A program made the position numbers and the translations under genes. 64,000 nucleotides of DNA from an uncultured Cyclobacteriaceae bacterium (lineage in GTDB: Bacteria; Bacteroidota; Bacteroidia; Cytophagales; Cyclobacteriaceae): positions 1-64,000 of the forward strand of contig CANLOE010000006.1 of assembly GCA_947492745.1 (NCBI GenBank). Reading direction: 5' to 3'. This document shows, in pieces, positions 3,699 to 51,137 of the stretch. Below the pieces are notes generated by a model. It saw only the letters and a program-made list of their open reading frames with translations, was not told the origin of the DNA and ran no database searches. Positions within the stretch are counted from its first letter, which is position 1, and every line of letters begins with the position of its first letter.

Positions 3699-3902
3699 AT
3701 CAGTTTGGTTTAATTATCTGATATATAGTGTTTTAATGGTGTGGGAGTGTGACAGGCTAAAGGTGTGATTTTTTATCCAATGTCAATGATGAACTGAAAC
3801 AAGGTTTAATTTTGGACTCCAATAGTATATATAGGTCATGGTAGGGGCCTATTTTCCTTTAGATACTGATTTGACATTATGTTTGAAATTTGTTGTTTTT
3901 TT

Positions 3903-4072
3903 ATCCCTGATTATGCGTTAGAGCTTATTTATGAGGGTTTAAAAAGCAATAAATCAGGGCGTTTTATCGGGTTCAGCATAGCACCGCTACGGTGAATTCG
4001 AAAAACGCATTCACTTTACTGATCTACAGCTATTTAAGCCCGCAATAGAAGGGCTAATGCATGGTCTGGGTT
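3903..4072 (-). repeat. Dispersed inverted-repeat family B, copy B1
   Basis: About 170 bp in reverse orientation relative to 30425-30594. Termini are ATCCCTGATTATGCGTTAG at one side and CTAATGCATGGTCTGGGTT at the other. The core is CAGCATAGCACCGCTACGG. Confidence 0.8.
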
Positions 4073-4192
4073 TATTTCGGGGGTGAGCATCAATTGACAA
4101 GGATAGCAGCACGGCCAGCCTAGGTGTTGACCTGAGTCATGAATCGAAAAGTGAAATTTTGAGAGTAATGTTGTTCATACGGATTTGAGCAT

Positions 4193-4224
4193 AAAAAATG
4201 CCTTCCCAAAGAGAGGCATTTTTT
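4193..4224 (-). terminator. Terminator hairpin downstream of the GlcG/HbpS-like gene
   Basis: A perfect 11 bp stem, AAAAAATGCCT / AGGCATTTTTT, with a 10 nt loop lies 63 nt after the stop codon at 4287. The A and T tracts on both sides would let it work in either direction. Confidence 0.8.
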
Positions 4225-4286
4225 ATAGCTTGGCAAATCATCCATACTGAAGTTTGAATGGATAATGTTCCTAAAGGATACTCCGC

Positions 4287-4709
4287 TTAGGCTTCTACGG
4301 CTTTGCTCAGAAGTGCATTAGCTCCGGCTACGGCTACCGCATGATCGTCCTCTACGGTACTTCCCGAAACGCCAATGGCACCAATGACTTCGTCATCACT
4401 GTTTTTTATAGGCACACCACCGGGGAAGGAAATCAAACCGCCATTGGAATGCTCTATATTGAACAACGGACCTCCAGGTTGTGATAAGTTACCGATATCG
4501 CCCGTGTTCATATTGAAATAACGCGCGGTTTTCGCCTTTTTCATAGCGATGTCAATAGAGCCGAGCCATGCTCCGTCCATACGTGCAAAAGCGGTCAGAT
4601 TAGTACCTGCATCGACAATCGCGATGTCCATTTTTACGCCGAGTTCTTCGGCTTTGACTTTTGCTGCATGGATGGCTTTTTCAGCTTCTGTAAGTGTGAT
4701 GTTCATCAT
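4287..4709 (-). CDS. GlcG/HbpS-family (DUF336) heme-binding-like protein
   Basis: A 140-residue protein covering the whole GlcG/HbpS fold: the N-terminal helix ([19 protein letters not shown]), then [20 protein letters not shown], and the Gly-rich core [21 protein letters not shown]. In this family HbpS binds heme extracellularly and GlcG accompanies glycolate oxidase. No signal peptide is visible, so this copy is probably cytoplasmic, and no glycolate genes are nearby. It lies 90 nt after the GNAT gene on the same strand and ends at a strong terminator, so it may be the last gene of an aminotransferase-GNAT-HbpS transcript. Confidence 0.85.
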
Positions 4710-4799
4710 TTCTACTATAGGTTTTGGTTTGGAAAAATATATGAGTGTATATCGTTCATTGCAGATCAGATCGAAGATTTGTTATCCGAATCGGTACAT

Positions 4800-5399
4800 T
4801 TAGTTTGTTTTTTTCTGAACTACAGTTTCGCCCTTATCTTTTTGATATGTATTGAATTCCTCACTGAGAATAGCGAATTCCTTACTGTCGGACCAGCCGC
4901 TATCCAAAGGTAAGTGTTTCCGTTTGACTCCTTCCGATACCATACCTACTTTCTCAATGACACGTAGTGAAGCTTGGTTTTCGACGGCACAACTGGCCCC
5001 TATGCGATGGAGTTTCAGCGAGTCGAATCCGAAGGACAGGACTTCCATAACAGCTTCGGTGGCATACCCACCTCCCCAATACCGTGGCAGGATTTTGTAC
5101 CAGAGCATAGCTCCTTTGTATTTAGGGTTGTCTCTATAAAGGGCTATGAGTCCGATAAATGTTTCTTTTTCTTTATCCTGAATGGAGAACGTGAAGTCAC
5201 GTAGCGGTACTTTGTGGTAATCTTTGATGAACTGCTGTATTACATAGCGTGTTTCGTTGATATCCTTTGGAATCCCAAGAGTATTGTACCTATTGGTCTC
5301 CGGTGCTGAATGGAGGGCATGAACATCCTCTAGATCGATCCAATGAACGGGCCGAAGGAACAAACGTTCGGTATGTAGCACAGTCTGTTGTATCATCAT
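4800..5399 (-). CDS. GNAT-family N-acetyltransferase, RimJ/RimL type
   Basis: A 199-residue single-domain acetyltransferase. It starts with TERLFLRPVHWIDLEDVHALH, typical of the RimJ/RimL branch, and has the acetyl-CoA pyrophosphate-binding stretch RYWGGGYATEAV followed by LKLHRIGASCAVENQASLRV. Members acetylate N-termini of ribosomal proteins, small amines or antibiotics; the substrate here is unknown. Its ATG overlaps the stop codon of the aminotransferase gene by 4 nt (ATGA type), indicating translational coupling. Confidence 0.85.
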   Translation of the reverse strand: MMIQQTVLHTERLFLRPVHWIDLEDVHALHSAPETNRYNTLGIPKDINETRYVIQQFIKDYHKVPLRDFTFSIQDKEKETFIGLIALYRDNPKYKGAMLWYKILPRYWGGGYATEAVMEVLSFGFDSLKLHRIGASCAVENQASLRVIEKVGMVSEGVKRKHLPLDSGWSDSKEFAILSEEFNTYQKDKGETVVQKKTN

Positions 5400-6586
5400 G
5401 CTTTATCTATGGCGGCTAATATGATATCGCAGGCCTCCTTCACTTCTTCCGGGCTAATGGTCAGTGGCGGGGCTATACGAAAACTATTGTTGGTGGAAAG
5501 AAACCAAAAGCAAATGACTCCTTGCTCCAGACAATCCGTGACGATACTTGCCACTGTTTCGAAACAGTCGAATTCTATGGCGAACATCAAACCGATACGA
5601 CGGATTTCCACAATTTTTTCATGTTGCAGGTATTTTTCGAAAAGTTGTCCTTTACTTTCTACCCCATCGAGAAAGCCACTTTCGAGTAACACTTCCAAAG
5701 TAGCAAGACTAGCAGCACAACATACCGGATTACCTCCAAATGTAGTGATGTGGCCCAACATGGGTTCAAAAGTCAGTGTATTCATCATGGCCCTATCAGC
5801 GATAAAAGCTCCTATGGGGAGTCCTCCGCCCATGGCTTTTGCAAGGGTAAGTATATCAGGGACCACTCCGAACTGCTCAAAGGCAAACAGTGTACCTGTG
5901 CGTCCGAAGCCCGTCTGTATTTCATCAAAAACCAATAAGGTACCCATGTCCGTACAGCGCCTACGCAGTGCCTGTAGGTATTTTTTATCGGGAATTCGGA
6001 CACCAGCGTCCCCTTGCACGGTTTCAATGATCACACAAGCTGTTTTTTCAGTGATATGGGCCAGGTCTTCTTGGCAATTGAAGTGGATAAAGCGCACATC
6101 GGGCAGCAAGGGCCGAAAAGCTGACTTTTTCACTTCATTGCCCGATACACTGAGTGCACCATGTGTACTGCCATGATAAGATTTATGGCAAGCGATGATT
6201 TCTGTTCTACCTGTATATCTCTTGGCCAGTTTTAGTGCTCCTTCATTGGCCTCCGCACCTGAGTTCACAAAGTAGGTGCAATTGAGCGTGTCGGGAAGTG
6301 CTTCTGCGAGACGCTTTGCCAATAGGTTCGGGGCGGACTGCACATACTCACCGTAGACCATGACGTGCAAATGCCGGTCCAACTGGTCCTTGATAGCAGC
6401 GATTACGTGCGGATGACGATGACCGATATTACTTACGGCTACCCCGGAAATCAAATCCATATACTTTTTTCCATCGGGGCCATAGAGATAGAGACCTTCT
6501 GCTTTTTCGATATCGATAAGGAAGGGCTGACCTGTGGTCTGTGCTATATGCCGTAAGAATACATCATGACTGAACTCCATGCTCAA
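5396..6586 (-). CDS. Class-III (ornithine/acetylornithine-type) aminotransferase
   Basis: A 396-residue PLP enzyme. Visible landmarks are the glycine-rich phosphate-binding region NSGAEANEGALKLAKRYTG, the cofactor aspartate motif LLVFDEIQTGFGRTG, and the Schiff-base lysine Lys250 in LTLAKAMGGGLPIG. Length fits ornithine, acetylornithine or 4-aminobutyrate aminotransferases; sequence reading alone does not separate these. No arginine biosynthesis genes are adjacent, so assigning argD would be unsafe. It is the first gene of a tight pair with the GNAT gene. A specialised amine pathway, with amino transfer followed by N-acetylation, is possible but inferred. Confidence 0.85.
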   Translation of the reverse strand: MSMEFSHDVFLRHIAQTTGQPFLIDIEKAEGLYLYGPDGKKYMDLISGVAVSNIGHRHPHVIAAIKDQLDRHLHVMVYGEYVQSAPNLLAKRLAEALPDTLNCTYFVNSGAEANEGALKLAKRYTGRTEIIACHKSYHGSTHGALSVSGNEVKKSAFRPLLPDVRFIHFNCQEDLAHITEKTACVIIETVQGDAGVRIPDKKYLQALRRRCTDMGTLLVFDEIQTGFGRTGTLFAFEQFGVVPDILTLAKAMGGGLPIGAFIADRAMMNTLTFEPMLGHITTFGGNPVCCAASLATLEVLLESGFLDGVESKGQLFEKYLQHEKIVEIRRIGLMFAIEFDCFETVASIVTDCLEQGVICFWFLSTNNSFRIAPPLTISPEEVKEACDIILAAIDKA

Positions 6587-43921: not shown

Positions 43922-45085
43922 TTATACTTCTATAGATTGCATGGCCGGCTTTACCCACTTCTCCGAGCAGTAGTGAAGAATCTTCCATACCAGCTGTCTC
44001 AGTCTACCGAGATGGCCGTGAATGACGACGTGGTATTCAAAATAAGGTAATCCGCCGCGTTGTTTTTTGAACTTTGCCGCCCCACTGCTCATGTTCAGAA
44101 TATAGTTATTATCTATAGTCAACTGCATCAGCTGATGATTCATCAGCCGATATAATCCCATAGACTTTGGGGAATTCAGATCATAACCGATAAAAGGAGT
44201 CGTGACAATACGGTTGCGGCATGCCACCGCCTGCACCGCCCTAACCTGTCCATCGTTTTCGTCCATAAGTAGATAATATTCCAAAAGCCCACTCTGAAGG
44301 GCGATGTCCAGAAAAGCTTCCGTATAATGAGGATTAAGAGCCGAATATTTTTTAAGATATAAAGAACGGTACTGCTCTATGGCGGTTTTCCTTTCTTCTT
44401 CCGAAAAAGTGGCCGCTTTCTTCCAAACGAGACCCATCGTTTTTTCACTGAGCTTTTTGTCCATGACGTAGGGGCGCTTCTTCTTGTACTTCCCCGTAGC
44501 CGGGTCCATCATATACAGTTGCCGGCAGACGAGGGCCGTCCCACCCTCTTGCTGGAGTTGTTCCAGAAGCAGAGCGTCGCTGAGAGCATTGACCGACCTG
44601 AAAATGATAGCTTTAGAAGGAAAATGCTCTTTTAATTTTTTAATCAATAAAGGAATACGAAATTCCTTGGTACAAGGGTAAAGGTTCGTGGAAATAAGGT
44701 AATTATTGACAAAGATGACATTTTCCATACCCATAATGGCGCCTAACCATCGGCCGATAGGAAGGATGAACCTGGCTAATCTTTTTTGATTTTTATTGTA
44801 CTTATCATTTTTCAGCACTTCTTCTTGGGTATAATCGAAATACTGAGACAGCATAGAGGCTAAATAAGTGTATTTTTCAGTACTTCTTTTTCCCTCCGTA
44901 TAAGGTAATATATGTTTGCCTATCTGTAGTAAACCCCAAGGGTGGTTCGTATTCTCTATGAAATACCGAGTACCTCTTTTTTGTAATGCTTCAAAGTAAA
45001 TCCTAATTTGTTCTCCATTATAAACAGTATCCCACTGGATAAGGTTAATTTTATCGCTAGGGTAGACATGTATATGTTCGGTCAT
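43922..45085 (-). CDS. Uncharacterised GNAT-fold acyltransferase-like protein
   Basis: A 387-residue protein. The C-terminal half (about 200-360) resembles the GNAT fold used by lipid-linked acyltransferases (LLMDENDGQVRAVQAVACRN; GLYRLMNHQLMQLTIDNNYI; FKKQRGGLPYFEYHVVIHGH). The N-terminal half is basic and helical. No signal peptide or membrane helix was found. It is divergent from, and 153 nt away from, the BtaA-type gene, and upstream of the LysE gene by 18 nt. Acyl-CoA- or acyl-ACP-dependent transfer is inferred from fold only, and the identification is tentative. Confidence 0.55.
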   Translation of the reverse strand: MTEHIHVYPSDKINLIQWDTVYNGEQIRIYFEALQKRGTRYFIENTNHPWGLLQIGKHILPYTEGKRSTEKYTYLASMLSQYFDYTQEEVLKNDKYNKNQKRLARFILPIGRWLGAIMGMENVIFVNNYLISTNLYPCTKEFRIPLLIKKLKEHFPSKAIIFRSVNALSDALLLEQLQQEGGTALVCRQLYMMDPATGKYKKKRPYVMDKKLSEKTMGLVWKKAATFSEEERKTAIEQYRSLYLKKYSALNPHYTEAFLDIALQSGLLEYYLLMDENDGQVRAVQAVACRNRIVTTPFIGYDLNSPKSMGLYRLMNHQLMQLTIDNNYILNMSSGAAKFKKQRGGLPYFEYHVVIHGHLGRLRQLVWKILHYCSEKWVKPAMQSIEV

Positions 45086-45238: not shown

Positions 45239-46399
45239 ATGAAAAGTAAAATCAACGAGCTCAAGGATAAGCTTTTTTCAAATATCCATTCCAATAACCT
45301 AATCTACAATACTTGCTGGGAAGATCCTAGGACAGACCGTAAGATGATGAAACTGGATGCGGACAGTAAAGTGGTCATGATTACCAGTGCCGGTTGTAAT
45401 GCGCTGGATTATGTACTGGATAAACCTAATGAAATCAACTGCATTGATTTGAATTTTCGTCAAAACTCGCTGTTGGAGCTGAAAAAAGCGACTATACTTC
45501 ATGGCGATTTTGAAAAACACTTTGACATGTTCGGCCGGGGTTGTCTCGCTCATGTCGATGAACATTACCGACAGTACCTTAGAGACGTACTTCCTGAATA
45601 TACCTACCCGTTCTGGGATAAAAAGATAAAGTGTTTTGAAACTGCAAAGCGCGGTAGTTTTTATTTTCATGGCACCTCCGGAAACTTTGCCTGGATATTC
45701 AAAAAATACTTTGACACTAAAAAGAAGACCAAAGCACTCATAATGGACCTTTTTGATTGTGCCTCTTTAGAAGAACAAAGAGAAGTCTATGAGAAGTTGG
45801 AACCTAAGCTGCTCAACAAGCTGGTAGTATGGATGATGAACCTTCATATCACGACAACGATGCTGGGCGTGCCGCGCCCACAAAGGGACCTTATTGTCGA
45901 AAAGTATCCAGAAGGCATGTCAGGTTATCTAAGAGATAACCTCAGACATATTTTTACGGAATTGCCCATTCAGGATAACTATTTTTGGCACTTGTACATA
46001 AAAGGGAATTACACGGAGAGGAACTGTCCCGAATACTTGAGAGAAGAGAACTTTGGCCCACTTCAAGGAATGATGGACCGTGTAAAACTCAACACGACTT
46101 CCATAAGTCAATTTCTGAAGGATAATCCAGGAGAGTACACACATTACGTACTATTGGACCATCAGGACTGGCTGGCATTTTACCAACCGGAAGCACTGGA
46201 GGAAGAATGGCGATTGATTTTGGAAAATAGTAAGCCCGGTACAAAAATACTCCTACGGTCCGCTGCACTCGAAGTGGACTTTTTTCCTGAATTTGTAAAG
46301 CAAAGAGTGAAATTTTCTCCTTCGGAGGCAGCCGAGTCTCAACAAAATGATAGAGTAGGGACTTACGGGAGTACCTATTTTGGAGAAGTCCTTACATAG
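45239..46399 (+). CDS. BtaA-like (DUF3419) S-adenosylmethionine:diacylglycerol aminocarboxypropyltransferase
   Basis: A 386-residue protein of the DUF3419/BtaA family. Family features are LIYNTCWEDPRTDRKMMKLD at the N-terminus, the SAM-binding region VVMITSAGCNALDYVLDKPN, and INCIDLNFRQNSLLELKKAT. BtaA transfers the aminocarboxypropyl group of SAM to diacylglycerol, giving diacylglycerylhomoserine, the precursor of betaine lipid DGTS. The methyltransferase BtaB that completes DGTS is not adjacent, so the end product here may be different. It shares a divergent promoter region with the GNAT-like gene. The role in lipids is inferred from family membership. Confidence 0.85.
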   Translation: MKSKINELKDKLFSNIHSNNLIYNTCWEDPRTDRKMMKLDADSKVVMITSAGCNALDYVLDKPNEINCIDLNFRQNSLLELKKATILHGDFEKHFDMFGRGCLAHVDEHYRQYLRDVLPEYTYPFWDKKIKCFETAKRGSFYFHGTSGNFAWIFKKYFDTKKKTKALIMDLFDCASLEEQREVYEKLEPKLLNKLVVWMMNLHITTTMLGVPRPQRDLIVEKYPEGMSGYLRDNLRHIFTELPIQDNYFWHLYIKGNYTERNCPEYLREENFGPLQGMMDRVKLNTTSISQFLKDNPGEYTHYVLLDHQDWLAFYQPEALEEEWRLILENSKPGTKILLRSAALEVDFFPEFVKQRVKFSPSEAAESQQNDRVGTYGSTYFGEVLT

Positions 46400-50355: not shown

Positions 50356-50844
50356 TTAGTGACGCTTTATCTCTTTTAAACGGTCTAAGGGGTATTTTTC
50401 AGGAAAAGTTTCGTACCATTTGATCAAAGTTTCAGAACCTAAATGGTCATAAATGAAATCACATTGATTGTCCAATTGTTCTGCGTAGGTATCTAATGTT
50501 TTTTGAGAGTTCTCCTTCATGGCTTTTTTGAAAGCCTCTTTCTGGTTGGATGGAGTAGGGATGTGGTGTATTATTTTGTTGAATTTTTCAGAACAGTAGC
50601 GGTAATAATGACTGGTGTGTAATATAAAATTATGCCACATCTCATCGATTATCATTAGAGGACTGTCAATGAACAAAGGCTTGCCGTCATTGATTTCACT
50701 TTTCTTAGAAGCAAGCCACAACCATTTTTTAGTTTCCGTAAAAATATCTTCTGCTTCTTGCTTCGAAACTTGATACCTTTCGATAAAACCAGATATAATT
50801 ACATCTTCATTCTCATAGTCTAAAGCCTCAGTTAGAGAACACAT
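50356..50844 (-). CDS. WH-motif protein of unknown function, partner of a small Cys peptide
   Basis: A 162-residue soluble protein. The most conserved-looking core is LMIIDEMWHNFILHTSHYYR followed by YCSEKFNKIIHHIP; Trp-His, two further His and a Cys are arranged as possible metal ligands. The segment is reminiscent of the W-H-x-h motif in GRDP-like domains, but I do not recognise the family with confidence. The N-terminal helix (SKQEAEDIFTETKKWLWLAS) and the C-terminal YDHLGSETLIKWYETFPEKY look family-specific. It lies 92 nt downstream of the 43-residue peptide gene on the same strand, behind a perfect hairpin, and has no promoter of its own that I can see. It could modify, bind or protect against the peptide. 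Confidence 0.65.
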   Translation of the reverse strand: MCSLTEALDYENEDVIISGFIERYQVSKQEAEDIFTETKKWLWLASKKSEINDGKPLFIDSPLMIIDEMWHNFILHTSHYYRYCSEKFNKIIHHIPTPSNQKEAFKKAMKENSQKTLDTYAEQLDNQCDFIYDHLGSETLIKWYETFPEKYPLDRLKEIKRH

Positions 50845-50893
50845 TTTTGCATTATTTTTTGATAAAAACTATTTTTATTACAGGTGATTATTT

Positions 50894-50923
50894 AGAATCA
50901 GTCTGCATAAACAGACTGATTCT
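50894..50923 (-). terminator. Perfect hairpin between peptide gene and WH-motif gene
   Basis: A 12 bp perfect stem, AGAATCAGTCTG / CAGACTGATTCT, with a 6 nt loop. On the minus strand it is followed by AAATAAT rather than a long T run, so it may be a leaky terminator or an RNA-stability hairpin. Such an arrangement would give much peptide and little of the downstream protein. Confidence 0.7.
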
Positions 50924-50936
50924 GAATTTGTTATTG

Positions 50937-51068
50937 TTAAAATGTATTGCAAACAGCAATACAGGCATTGCCATTCTTATTGTTTTTAACTGATTTTTTT
51001 ACAATTTTATCAATTATTTTGCTTTTTGATTGATTTAAAGATTGATTTTCTTGTGCTGAAATTTTCAT
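50937..51068 (-). CDS. 43-residue Cys-containing peptide, candidate secreted or modified peptide precursor
   Basis: A short frame encoding 43 residues. The first two thirds are polar, Asn/Gln/Ser/Lys-rich and amphipathic (MKISAQENQSLNQSKSK, then IIDKIVKKSVKNN); the last twelve residues, NGNACIAVCNTF, differ sharply, with Cys36 and Cys40 four apart. A leader-plus-core division with G33/N34 near the junction is typical of ribosomally made, processed peptides, including RiPPs and bacteriocins. Support comes from a good promoter 39 nt upstream, a hairpin just after the stop, and the co-directional WH-motif gene. No radical SAM, lanthipeptide or transporter gene is adjacent, so the maturation route is unknown. 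It may also simply be a small structural peptide. Confidence 0.6.
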   Translation of the reverse strand: MKISAQENQSLNQSKSKIIDKIVKKSVKNNKNGNACIAVCNTF

Positions 51069-51106
51069 CTAAATAAAATGTTAGTTGTTGTTGAATGAAT
51101 TCGCTG

Positions 51107-51137
51107 CAAATGTACTTCATTATTTTTATTAACAAAA
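51107..51137 (-). promoter_or_regulatory. Bacteroidota-type promoter of the small peptide gene
   Basis: On the minus strand TTTTG, then 18 nt, then TACATTTG match the Bacteroidota consensus (-33 TTTG, -7 TAnnTTTG). Transcription would start about 30 nt before the ATG at 51068. Confidence 0.75.

Follow-up and report, generated by a model that had tools for sequence, protein, structure and literature searches.

The DNA analyzed here, a window of 64,000 nucleotides from an uncultured Cyclobacteriaceae bacterium (contig CANLOE010000006.1), carries a three-gene set that we interpret, with a probability of about 0.6, as a microcin- or RiPP-like system working like a split version of MctA, the main protein of the E. 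coli microcin Mcc1229. The set comprises a two-cysteine precursor peptide, a 162-aa partner that we call the WH protein after its DEMWHNFILHT motif (relatives with DEMWH are “DEMWH-type”), and a sensor kinase; the precursor would be bound by its partner, its core matured, carried, or protected, and the product exported. The small ORF is a real, conserved, selected gene that is tied to WH. Judged by profile alignment, the WH protein is homologous to the N-terminal domain of MctA, and it occurs in other RiPP-type clusters too. Together, these observations point to a little-known bacterial peptide family that has a dedicated handling protein, the latter with a published, functionally tested relative. 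No description of the Bacteroidota pair was found in titles or abstract openings of the open-licence PMC literature. A preliminary description of this DNA had compared the layout to that of a precursor peptide accompanied by a modification or immunity protein, which fits the evidence below, and had proposed an undescribed system; the latter proposal stands insofar as the pair has no convincing family match and falls where WH proves homologous to the published MctA.

Architecture and conservation of the peptide/WH locus

The features of the locus are collected in the table. The cysteine ORF, the co-directional WH gene, and the perfect hairpin past the peptide stop codon were all found as the preliminary description had claimed; the kinase gene, which lies 115 nt downstream of WH on the same strand, was absent from it. 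Both Cys residues of the peptide fall within its final eight residues. The promoter-like boxes (TTTTG at 51137–51133 and TACATTTG at 51114–51107) lie 38 nt upstream of the peptide ATG and presumably represent the Bacteroidota type. The hairpin starts 13 nt beyond the peptide stop and has no T-run behind its stem; the peptide–WH gap folds with a z of −5.9. A signal peptide was recognized by eye in the kinase, and the layout suggests that the peptide, WH, and kinase genes share one transcript. Neither WH nor the peptide has a convincing match to a Pfam, NCBIfam, or PHROGs family; one weak PHROGs match for WH (E 0.061) was rejected. Pfam and NCBIfam scans of the neighbors found no exporter and, as had been stated earlier, no known maturase adjoining the window's genes. 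Further along the window, a gene for a DUF3419 protein (45239–46399, plus strand; 365 bits) adjoins an opposite-strand gene (43922–45085, minus strand) whose GNAT-type match is weak (18.4 bits, cut-off 22).

Table. Coordinates of the three genes and the associated elements in the window
Feature	Position	Strand	Remarks
Promoter-like TTTTG-N18-TACATTTG	51107..51137	−	From sequence and motif scan
Precursor-like peptide gene, 43 aa	50937..51068	−	Leader motif KSKIIDKI; core NACIAVCNTF with two family-invariant Cys
Perfect 12-bp hairpin, 6-nt loop	50894..50923	−	Between peptide and WH genes
WH gene, 162 aa	50356..50844	−	DEMWHNFILHT; homolog of the MctA N-terminal domain; DEMWH and HHxP invariant in 23-row alignment
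Sensor histidine kinase gene, 1097 aa	46947..50240	−	Reg_prop, Y_Y_Y, HisKA, and HATPase_c all above cut-off

Relatives of WH were sought in several genome samples. Among 245 genomes of the window's family, 42 matched at E 0.001 and provided 22 DEMWH-type loci in 21 genomes; GTDB species contigs provided two loci. Of 395 genomes in a phylum sample, 20 matched and added one DEMWH locus, the remaining matches being distant. The family of G560 (199 genomes) gave 10 matching genomes and two further DEMWH loci, and an order sample (271 genomes) gave six at E 1e-12 and three further loci. Because few genomes of each sample match WH, the system is patchy in its distribution. Relatives were not found in viral contigs, and a search of phages gave a single weak, partial match (E 6e-3). 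The Bacteroidota DEMWH-type loci total 30: 17 of type A (the window's type), eight of type B, one of type C, two of type D, one variant of type A (L127), and L128, where the end of WH alone is present at a contig edge.

A short, co-directional Cys peptide ORF lies just upstream of WH in all 28 loci with sufficient upstream sequence, and the tail of such a peptide is still encoded at a 29th (L049), which is broken by the contig end. The homologous peptide upstream of WH orthologs, on which the preliminary description had staked its reading, is thus present with an open frame wherever it could be assessed (28/28 Bacteroidota loci). Most type A and B peptides were selected by a rule (28–60 aa, 2–4 Cys in the last 25 residues), which a chance ORF in L052, since discarded, also satisfied; those of G220, L124, L127, and types C and D were identified by eye. 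The peptide gene on Aureibacter tunicatorum plasmid pAT2 (G010 record) is absent from the PLSDB gene table, which is itself incomplete. In the window's genome, the peptide profile at E 10 gives two matches, the window peptide and a type B copy on contig C38. This second copy (L035; G000:C38:40001-55164) consists of a peptide ending in GGTHCGGGGHCTSSL, WH, a ~308-aa protein, a TonB receptor, a DUF4374 protein, and ABC genes.

The peptides have the organization expected of RiPP precursors, i.e., a conserved leader and a variable Cys core. A 22-row alignment of type A and B peptides shows no variation at the initial Met or at two Cys, while cores vary around Cx2-5C, with HCxxCGHC in several type B peptides. 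Of the 29 peptides, which come from 27 loci, 28 carry the leader motif K-x-x-[LIV]-[IVLM]-x-x-[LI] (L043 is the exception), compared with 48 of 1753 small ORFs in the background set and, on average, 0.86 of 29 shuffled peptides. In 25 of the 29 peptides and 1 of the 1753 background ORFs, the motif precedes two Cys within the last 25 residues. The motif was derived from the very peptides that were scored, making the background comparison descriptive. When an HMM built from the 15 other type A peptides was run on a set of 2639 ORFs, the window peptide came first among those not used in training (E 0.0065, a value that is modest by itself), followed by one type B peptide (E 0.0072) and an unrelated ORF (E 0.031); the remaining five type B peptides scored E 0.13–0.65, mixed with unrelated ORFs. 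The frames of relatives, which the preliminary description had proposed to check for disruption, are open, and pN/pS values of 0.12–0.54 in the four groups tested indicate purifying selection on the peptide, with pS being high and partly saturated. The peptides are polar and K-rich, and by eye have no membrane segment. Two near-identical copies are encoded in L127 and two precursors in L083. A match of a type B peptide to TIGR04165 (17.3 bits, cut-off 60) and matches of the type C peptide to class IIb bacteriocins, below model cut-offs, were too weak and were set aside.

The flanking elements vary more than the genes. Among 22 peptides, two are preceded by the full TTTG-N17-21-TAnnTTTG pattern, against 0.07 expected from shuffles, and eight by the −7 box alone, against 2.4 expected. 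The near-consensus promoter that had been described earlier is therefore present in sequence and plausibly real in the window; as such it is not conserved among relatives, where sequence conservation appears weak. A strong stem (z −3.4 to −7.4) is found in 12 of the 13 type A/B loci with a peptide–WH gap of at least 50 nt, the remaining one, L038, folding weakly (z −2.6); nine loci with gaps of ≤37 nt have no strong stem, including L052, where the gap depends on the choice of ATG. In the hairpins of four type B loci, 93.8% of cells are paired and the covariation score is 0.250, each reached by 24 of 500 shuffles, with a version slid by three columns scoring 0.236; two pairs changed on both sides, a number equalled by 267 of 500 shuffles. 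The hairpin is a likely attenuator or processing element, one that would favor the peptide.

WH itself is well conserved, with 49–57% identity for the 14 closest relatives. Among 46 aligned superfamily members, W70, H71, Y80, and H94 are present in all, D67 in 45, and E37 in 41 of the 43 aligned at that position; by conservation alone, E37, D67, H71, and H94 could possibly form a metal site. AlphaFold models are all-helical with mean pLDDT values of 49.7 (single sequence) and 50.5 (window plus L033 and L034), too poor for a fold search, and a profile search of the PDB with WH gave two matches that are not credible (E 0.13 and 0.43).

Operon contexts and the link to MctA

The gene that follows WH was compared in 23 oriented loci. 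In type A, a sensor kinase directly follows WH in all 16 loci examined. In type B, WH is followed by a ~308-aa uncharacterized protein (7/7 loci, with a 4-nt overlap in four), and a TonB-dependent receptor comes next in 6 of 7. The receptor of L035 resembles MxcH (541.8 bits, below the cut-off of 925), and beyond it lie genes for a DUF4374 lipoprotein (31.7 bits, cut-off 25) and an ABC transporter. We considered the ~308-aa protein as an RRE/PqqD; PF05402 matched neither of the two members scanned and was not found in nine genomes searched. In type C, a Cys-rich peptide with a GG leader is combined with WH and a protein of the Peptidase_S9 family (73.3 bits). The type D loci are grasp-with-spasm clusters, in which precursors of the form KENLISEL...KGGCC are followed by WH and then by maturation enzymes: in L092, TIGR04192 scores 336 bits (cut-off 230) and TIGR04193 scores 320 bits (cut-off 175), with ABC and HlyD-like genes recognized by eye, and L093 has the same arrangement, also by eye. 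Downstream of the L092 cluster is an extra small GG-type Cys peptide ORF (L092:13900-14061, plus strand). In L127/L130, two near-identical peptides and WH are followed by an 819-aa receptor (7TMR-DISM plus SpoIIE-like phosphatase, by eye) in the kinase's place. Among relatives of the window kinase, identity is 21–36% in the sensor part versus 40–52% in the kinase part. Sensor kinases commonly have such divergent sensor parts, and the divergence gives weak support to the idea that this kinase may sense the peptide.

A tblastn search of plasmids with WH matched 28 records, 25 of them from E. coli, with 22 of these 25 matches spanning residues 1–160 (31.3% identity, E 2e-18) and three being partial. 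On p0.1229_3 (NZ_CP028323.1), the match is the 232-aa protein WP_000939065.1 (3094–3792), and the next genes encode an ABC transporter (3831–5423) and a cupin protein (5426–6319). These three genes agree with mctA, mctB, and mctC as given in the accessible part of PMC8853679. The A1 profile aligns to MctA residues 18–173 with 135 bits, and five Cys lie within the last 19 residues of MctA, the C-terminal region noted as Cys-rich (PMC8853679). The tail of MctA gave no match to the peptide HMM, which confines the demonstrated homology to the WH part. According to the same portion of PMC8853679, mctABC form one transcript, Mcc1229 activity was lost on in-frame deletion of any one of the three genes and regained on complementation, uptake needs CirA and TonB, production is up under iron limitation with iron/Fur control, immunity maps to mctD–mctE, and the chemical identity of the microcin is stated to be unknown. 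On an E. coli plasmid, a 26-codon ORF (L137:7724-7804, minus strand) lies upstream of the mctA homolog; it has two Cys close to its end but no leader motif and may be due to chance.

More distant relatives share a D-x-x-WH domain and have a similar association with cysteine. Defining a Cys tail as four or more Cys in the last 45 residues, we found one in 30 of the 35 loci examined, in cis in 18 and in a same-strand neighbor in 12. Among control genes, 4 of 443 have a Cys tail in cis; the control covers cis tails and many of the 35 loci are close kin, making the contrast softer. Of the five exceptions, four have 2–3 Cys in similar-looking tails, and L073 does not. The WH proteins of L024, L026, L027, L028, and L085 are short, have QCGSC a few residues before their C-terminus, and adjoin a 356–403-codon protein ending in SSCSSCSSCGGD-like repeats. 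Plasmids provide further contexts. In a Streptomyces plasmid (L145:2343-4645, plus strand), genes for a Cys-tail protein, a 347-aa protein with no Pfam match (cupin-like by eye), and a WH-domain protein lie in a row that recalls mctA/mctC. In Rhizobium gallicum (L143:3824-4414, plus strand), a WH-domain protein with a terminal Cys tail is encoded among nifW, nifS, and electron-transfer flavoprotein genes. A Rhodococcus WH gene is flanked by genes for a 2OG-Fe(II) oxygenase (58.7 bits) and for an ATP-grasp protein resembling peptide maturases (TIGR04187, 114.8 bits, cut-off 350), and a Vibrio plasmid WH protein has no Cys tail.

A proposed maturation model and its alternatives

In the model that we favor, the peptide would be translated in excess, with the hairpin making it more abundant than WH and the kinase. 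WH would recognize or dock the K-x-x-L-I-x-x-L leader and, once docked, would mature, carry, or protect the two-Cys core; the place of the domain inside the Cys-tailed MctA fits a carrier as well as an enzyme. The product would then exit the cell. Through its periplasmic sensor, the kinase would read either the product or a condition that the product answers as part of the same response. A broader version of this model is tentative, and we regard it as possible rather than probable: D-x-x-WH proteins may form a new, widespread class of maturation factors for Cys peptides and tails that work in cis in MctA and TIGR04222-type proteins and in trans, by way of a short leader motif, in the present family, with one Bacteroidota branch devoted to peptide signaling read by a co-encoded kinase.

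Were the peptide instead an unmodified antibacterial microcin and WH its immunity protein, the layout of a peptide plus a small protein and the microcin connection through MctA would both be accounted for. However, the homologous domain sits in MctA, which is required for activity, while Mcc1229 immunity is assigned to mctD–mctE in the accessible text of PMC8853679; distant WH homologs are fused to or adjoin Cys tails; and WH is well conserved while cores vary, the reverse of what is expected of matched immunity. We consider this explanation quite improbable. The Cx2-5C and HCxxCGHC cores bear on a different possibility, namely that the peptide is an unmodified metal-binding or redox Cys peptide, WH its metal-loading or thiol partner, and the kinase a sensor of metal or redox stress. 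The MxcH-like receptor and DUF4374 protein of L035, the iron/Fur control of Mcc1229 (PMC8853679), and the Cys tails found throughout the superfamily are all compatible with such a role, but the leader-plus-core layout and the grasp-with-spasm and GG-leader contexts favor a processed product, and we regard an unmodified metal or redox peptide as unlikely.

A toxin–antitoxin pair with the peptide as toxin is very improbable. A small peptide does lie beside a small protein, one Bacteroidota case is plasmid-borne, and in PADLOC the peptide matches AbiP2/DRT weakly and partially (12.5 bits, E 0.012); however, this match spans 28 of the profile's 489 positions and lacks credibility, the peptides are polar and K-rich with no membrane segment by eye, and other operon contexts hold transport, peptidase, or RiPP genes. 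We give least weight to the idea that the ORF is a regulatory upstream ORF, i.e., a translation attenuator for WH and the kinase. While a hairpin lies behind the ORF in most long-gap loci, selection acts on the amino acid sequence, with its invariant Cys and leader motif, L127 encodes two near-identical peptide copies and L083 two precursors, and nine loci with short gaps have no strong stem.

The favored reading, a matured or carried peptide, has several implications. A single uncharacterized domain links an unannotated Bacteroidota peptide family, a microcin of unclear class according to the accessible part of PMC10233263, and Cys-tail proteins from the MNIO field, and this link yields a testable prediction on the role of the MctA domain. 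If the domain is a maturase, it represents a new family of RiPP enzymes and a handle for genome mining; if the kinase reads the product, the window encodes a candidate peptide signaling circuit in Bacteroidota.

Relation to known systems

Three groups of known proteins resemble parts of the system. GRDP-like proteins (PF07173) come close to the distant relatives L029 and L030, which score just below the cut-off (20.3 and 22.3 bits; cut-off 22.7), whereas the window's WH protein has no match at the Pfam gathering score. TIGR04222 membrane proteins and other MNIO-linked Cys-tail proteins likewise couple a distant D-x-x-WH domain to Cys/Ser/Gly-rich C-terminal tails, but their tails are in cis or in a large neighbor; L030 matches TIGR04222 (47.5 bits, cut-off 43), a family proposed to be partly MNIO substrates (PMC12452194, accessible part). 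MNIO enzymes (PF05114, MbnB_TglH_ChrH) were absent from 22 of the 26 peptide/WH genomes searched, a set that leaves out G1004 and two MAG contigs, and thus cannot be the general modifying enzyme of these systems; with just four of the 26 genomes having one, we also rejected an MNIO acting in trans. The window's genome has one MNIO-type enzyme (L134; G000, contig C169; PF05114, 336.7 bits), which is unlinked to its WH loci and followed by a short gene that by eye resembles an MNIO partner.

The third group is the grasp-with-spasm graspetide system (TIGR04192/TIGR04193). L092, by HMM, and L093, by eye, have WH between the precursor and the ATP-grasp enzyme, and their precursors carry both the leader motif KENLIxEL and two Cys after GG. 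The window differs in having no ATP-grasp or SPASM genes among the neighbors scanned. We surveyed 28 grasp-with-spasm loci from a 247-genome sample with 1.5 kb flanks; WH lay near one of the 11 loci whose TIGR04192 score was above the cut-off, that of G812, which was the chosen search center, and we rejected WH as a standard part of these clusters.

The closest comparison is with Mcc1229. MctA residues 18–173 are homologous to WH, a Cys-rich segment accompanies the domain in both, and the TonB-dependent uptake and ABC transporter of Mcc1229 recall the type B operons. The two systems differ in that the WH domain and the Cys tail are fused in MctA and encoded by separate genes in the window, and in that mctA is followed by genes for an ABC transporter and a JmjC/cupin protein, whereas a sensor kinase gene follows the window's WH. 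By analogy, given the homology of the WH part and the parallel of a Cys segment, the window may be regarded as “MctA split in two”.
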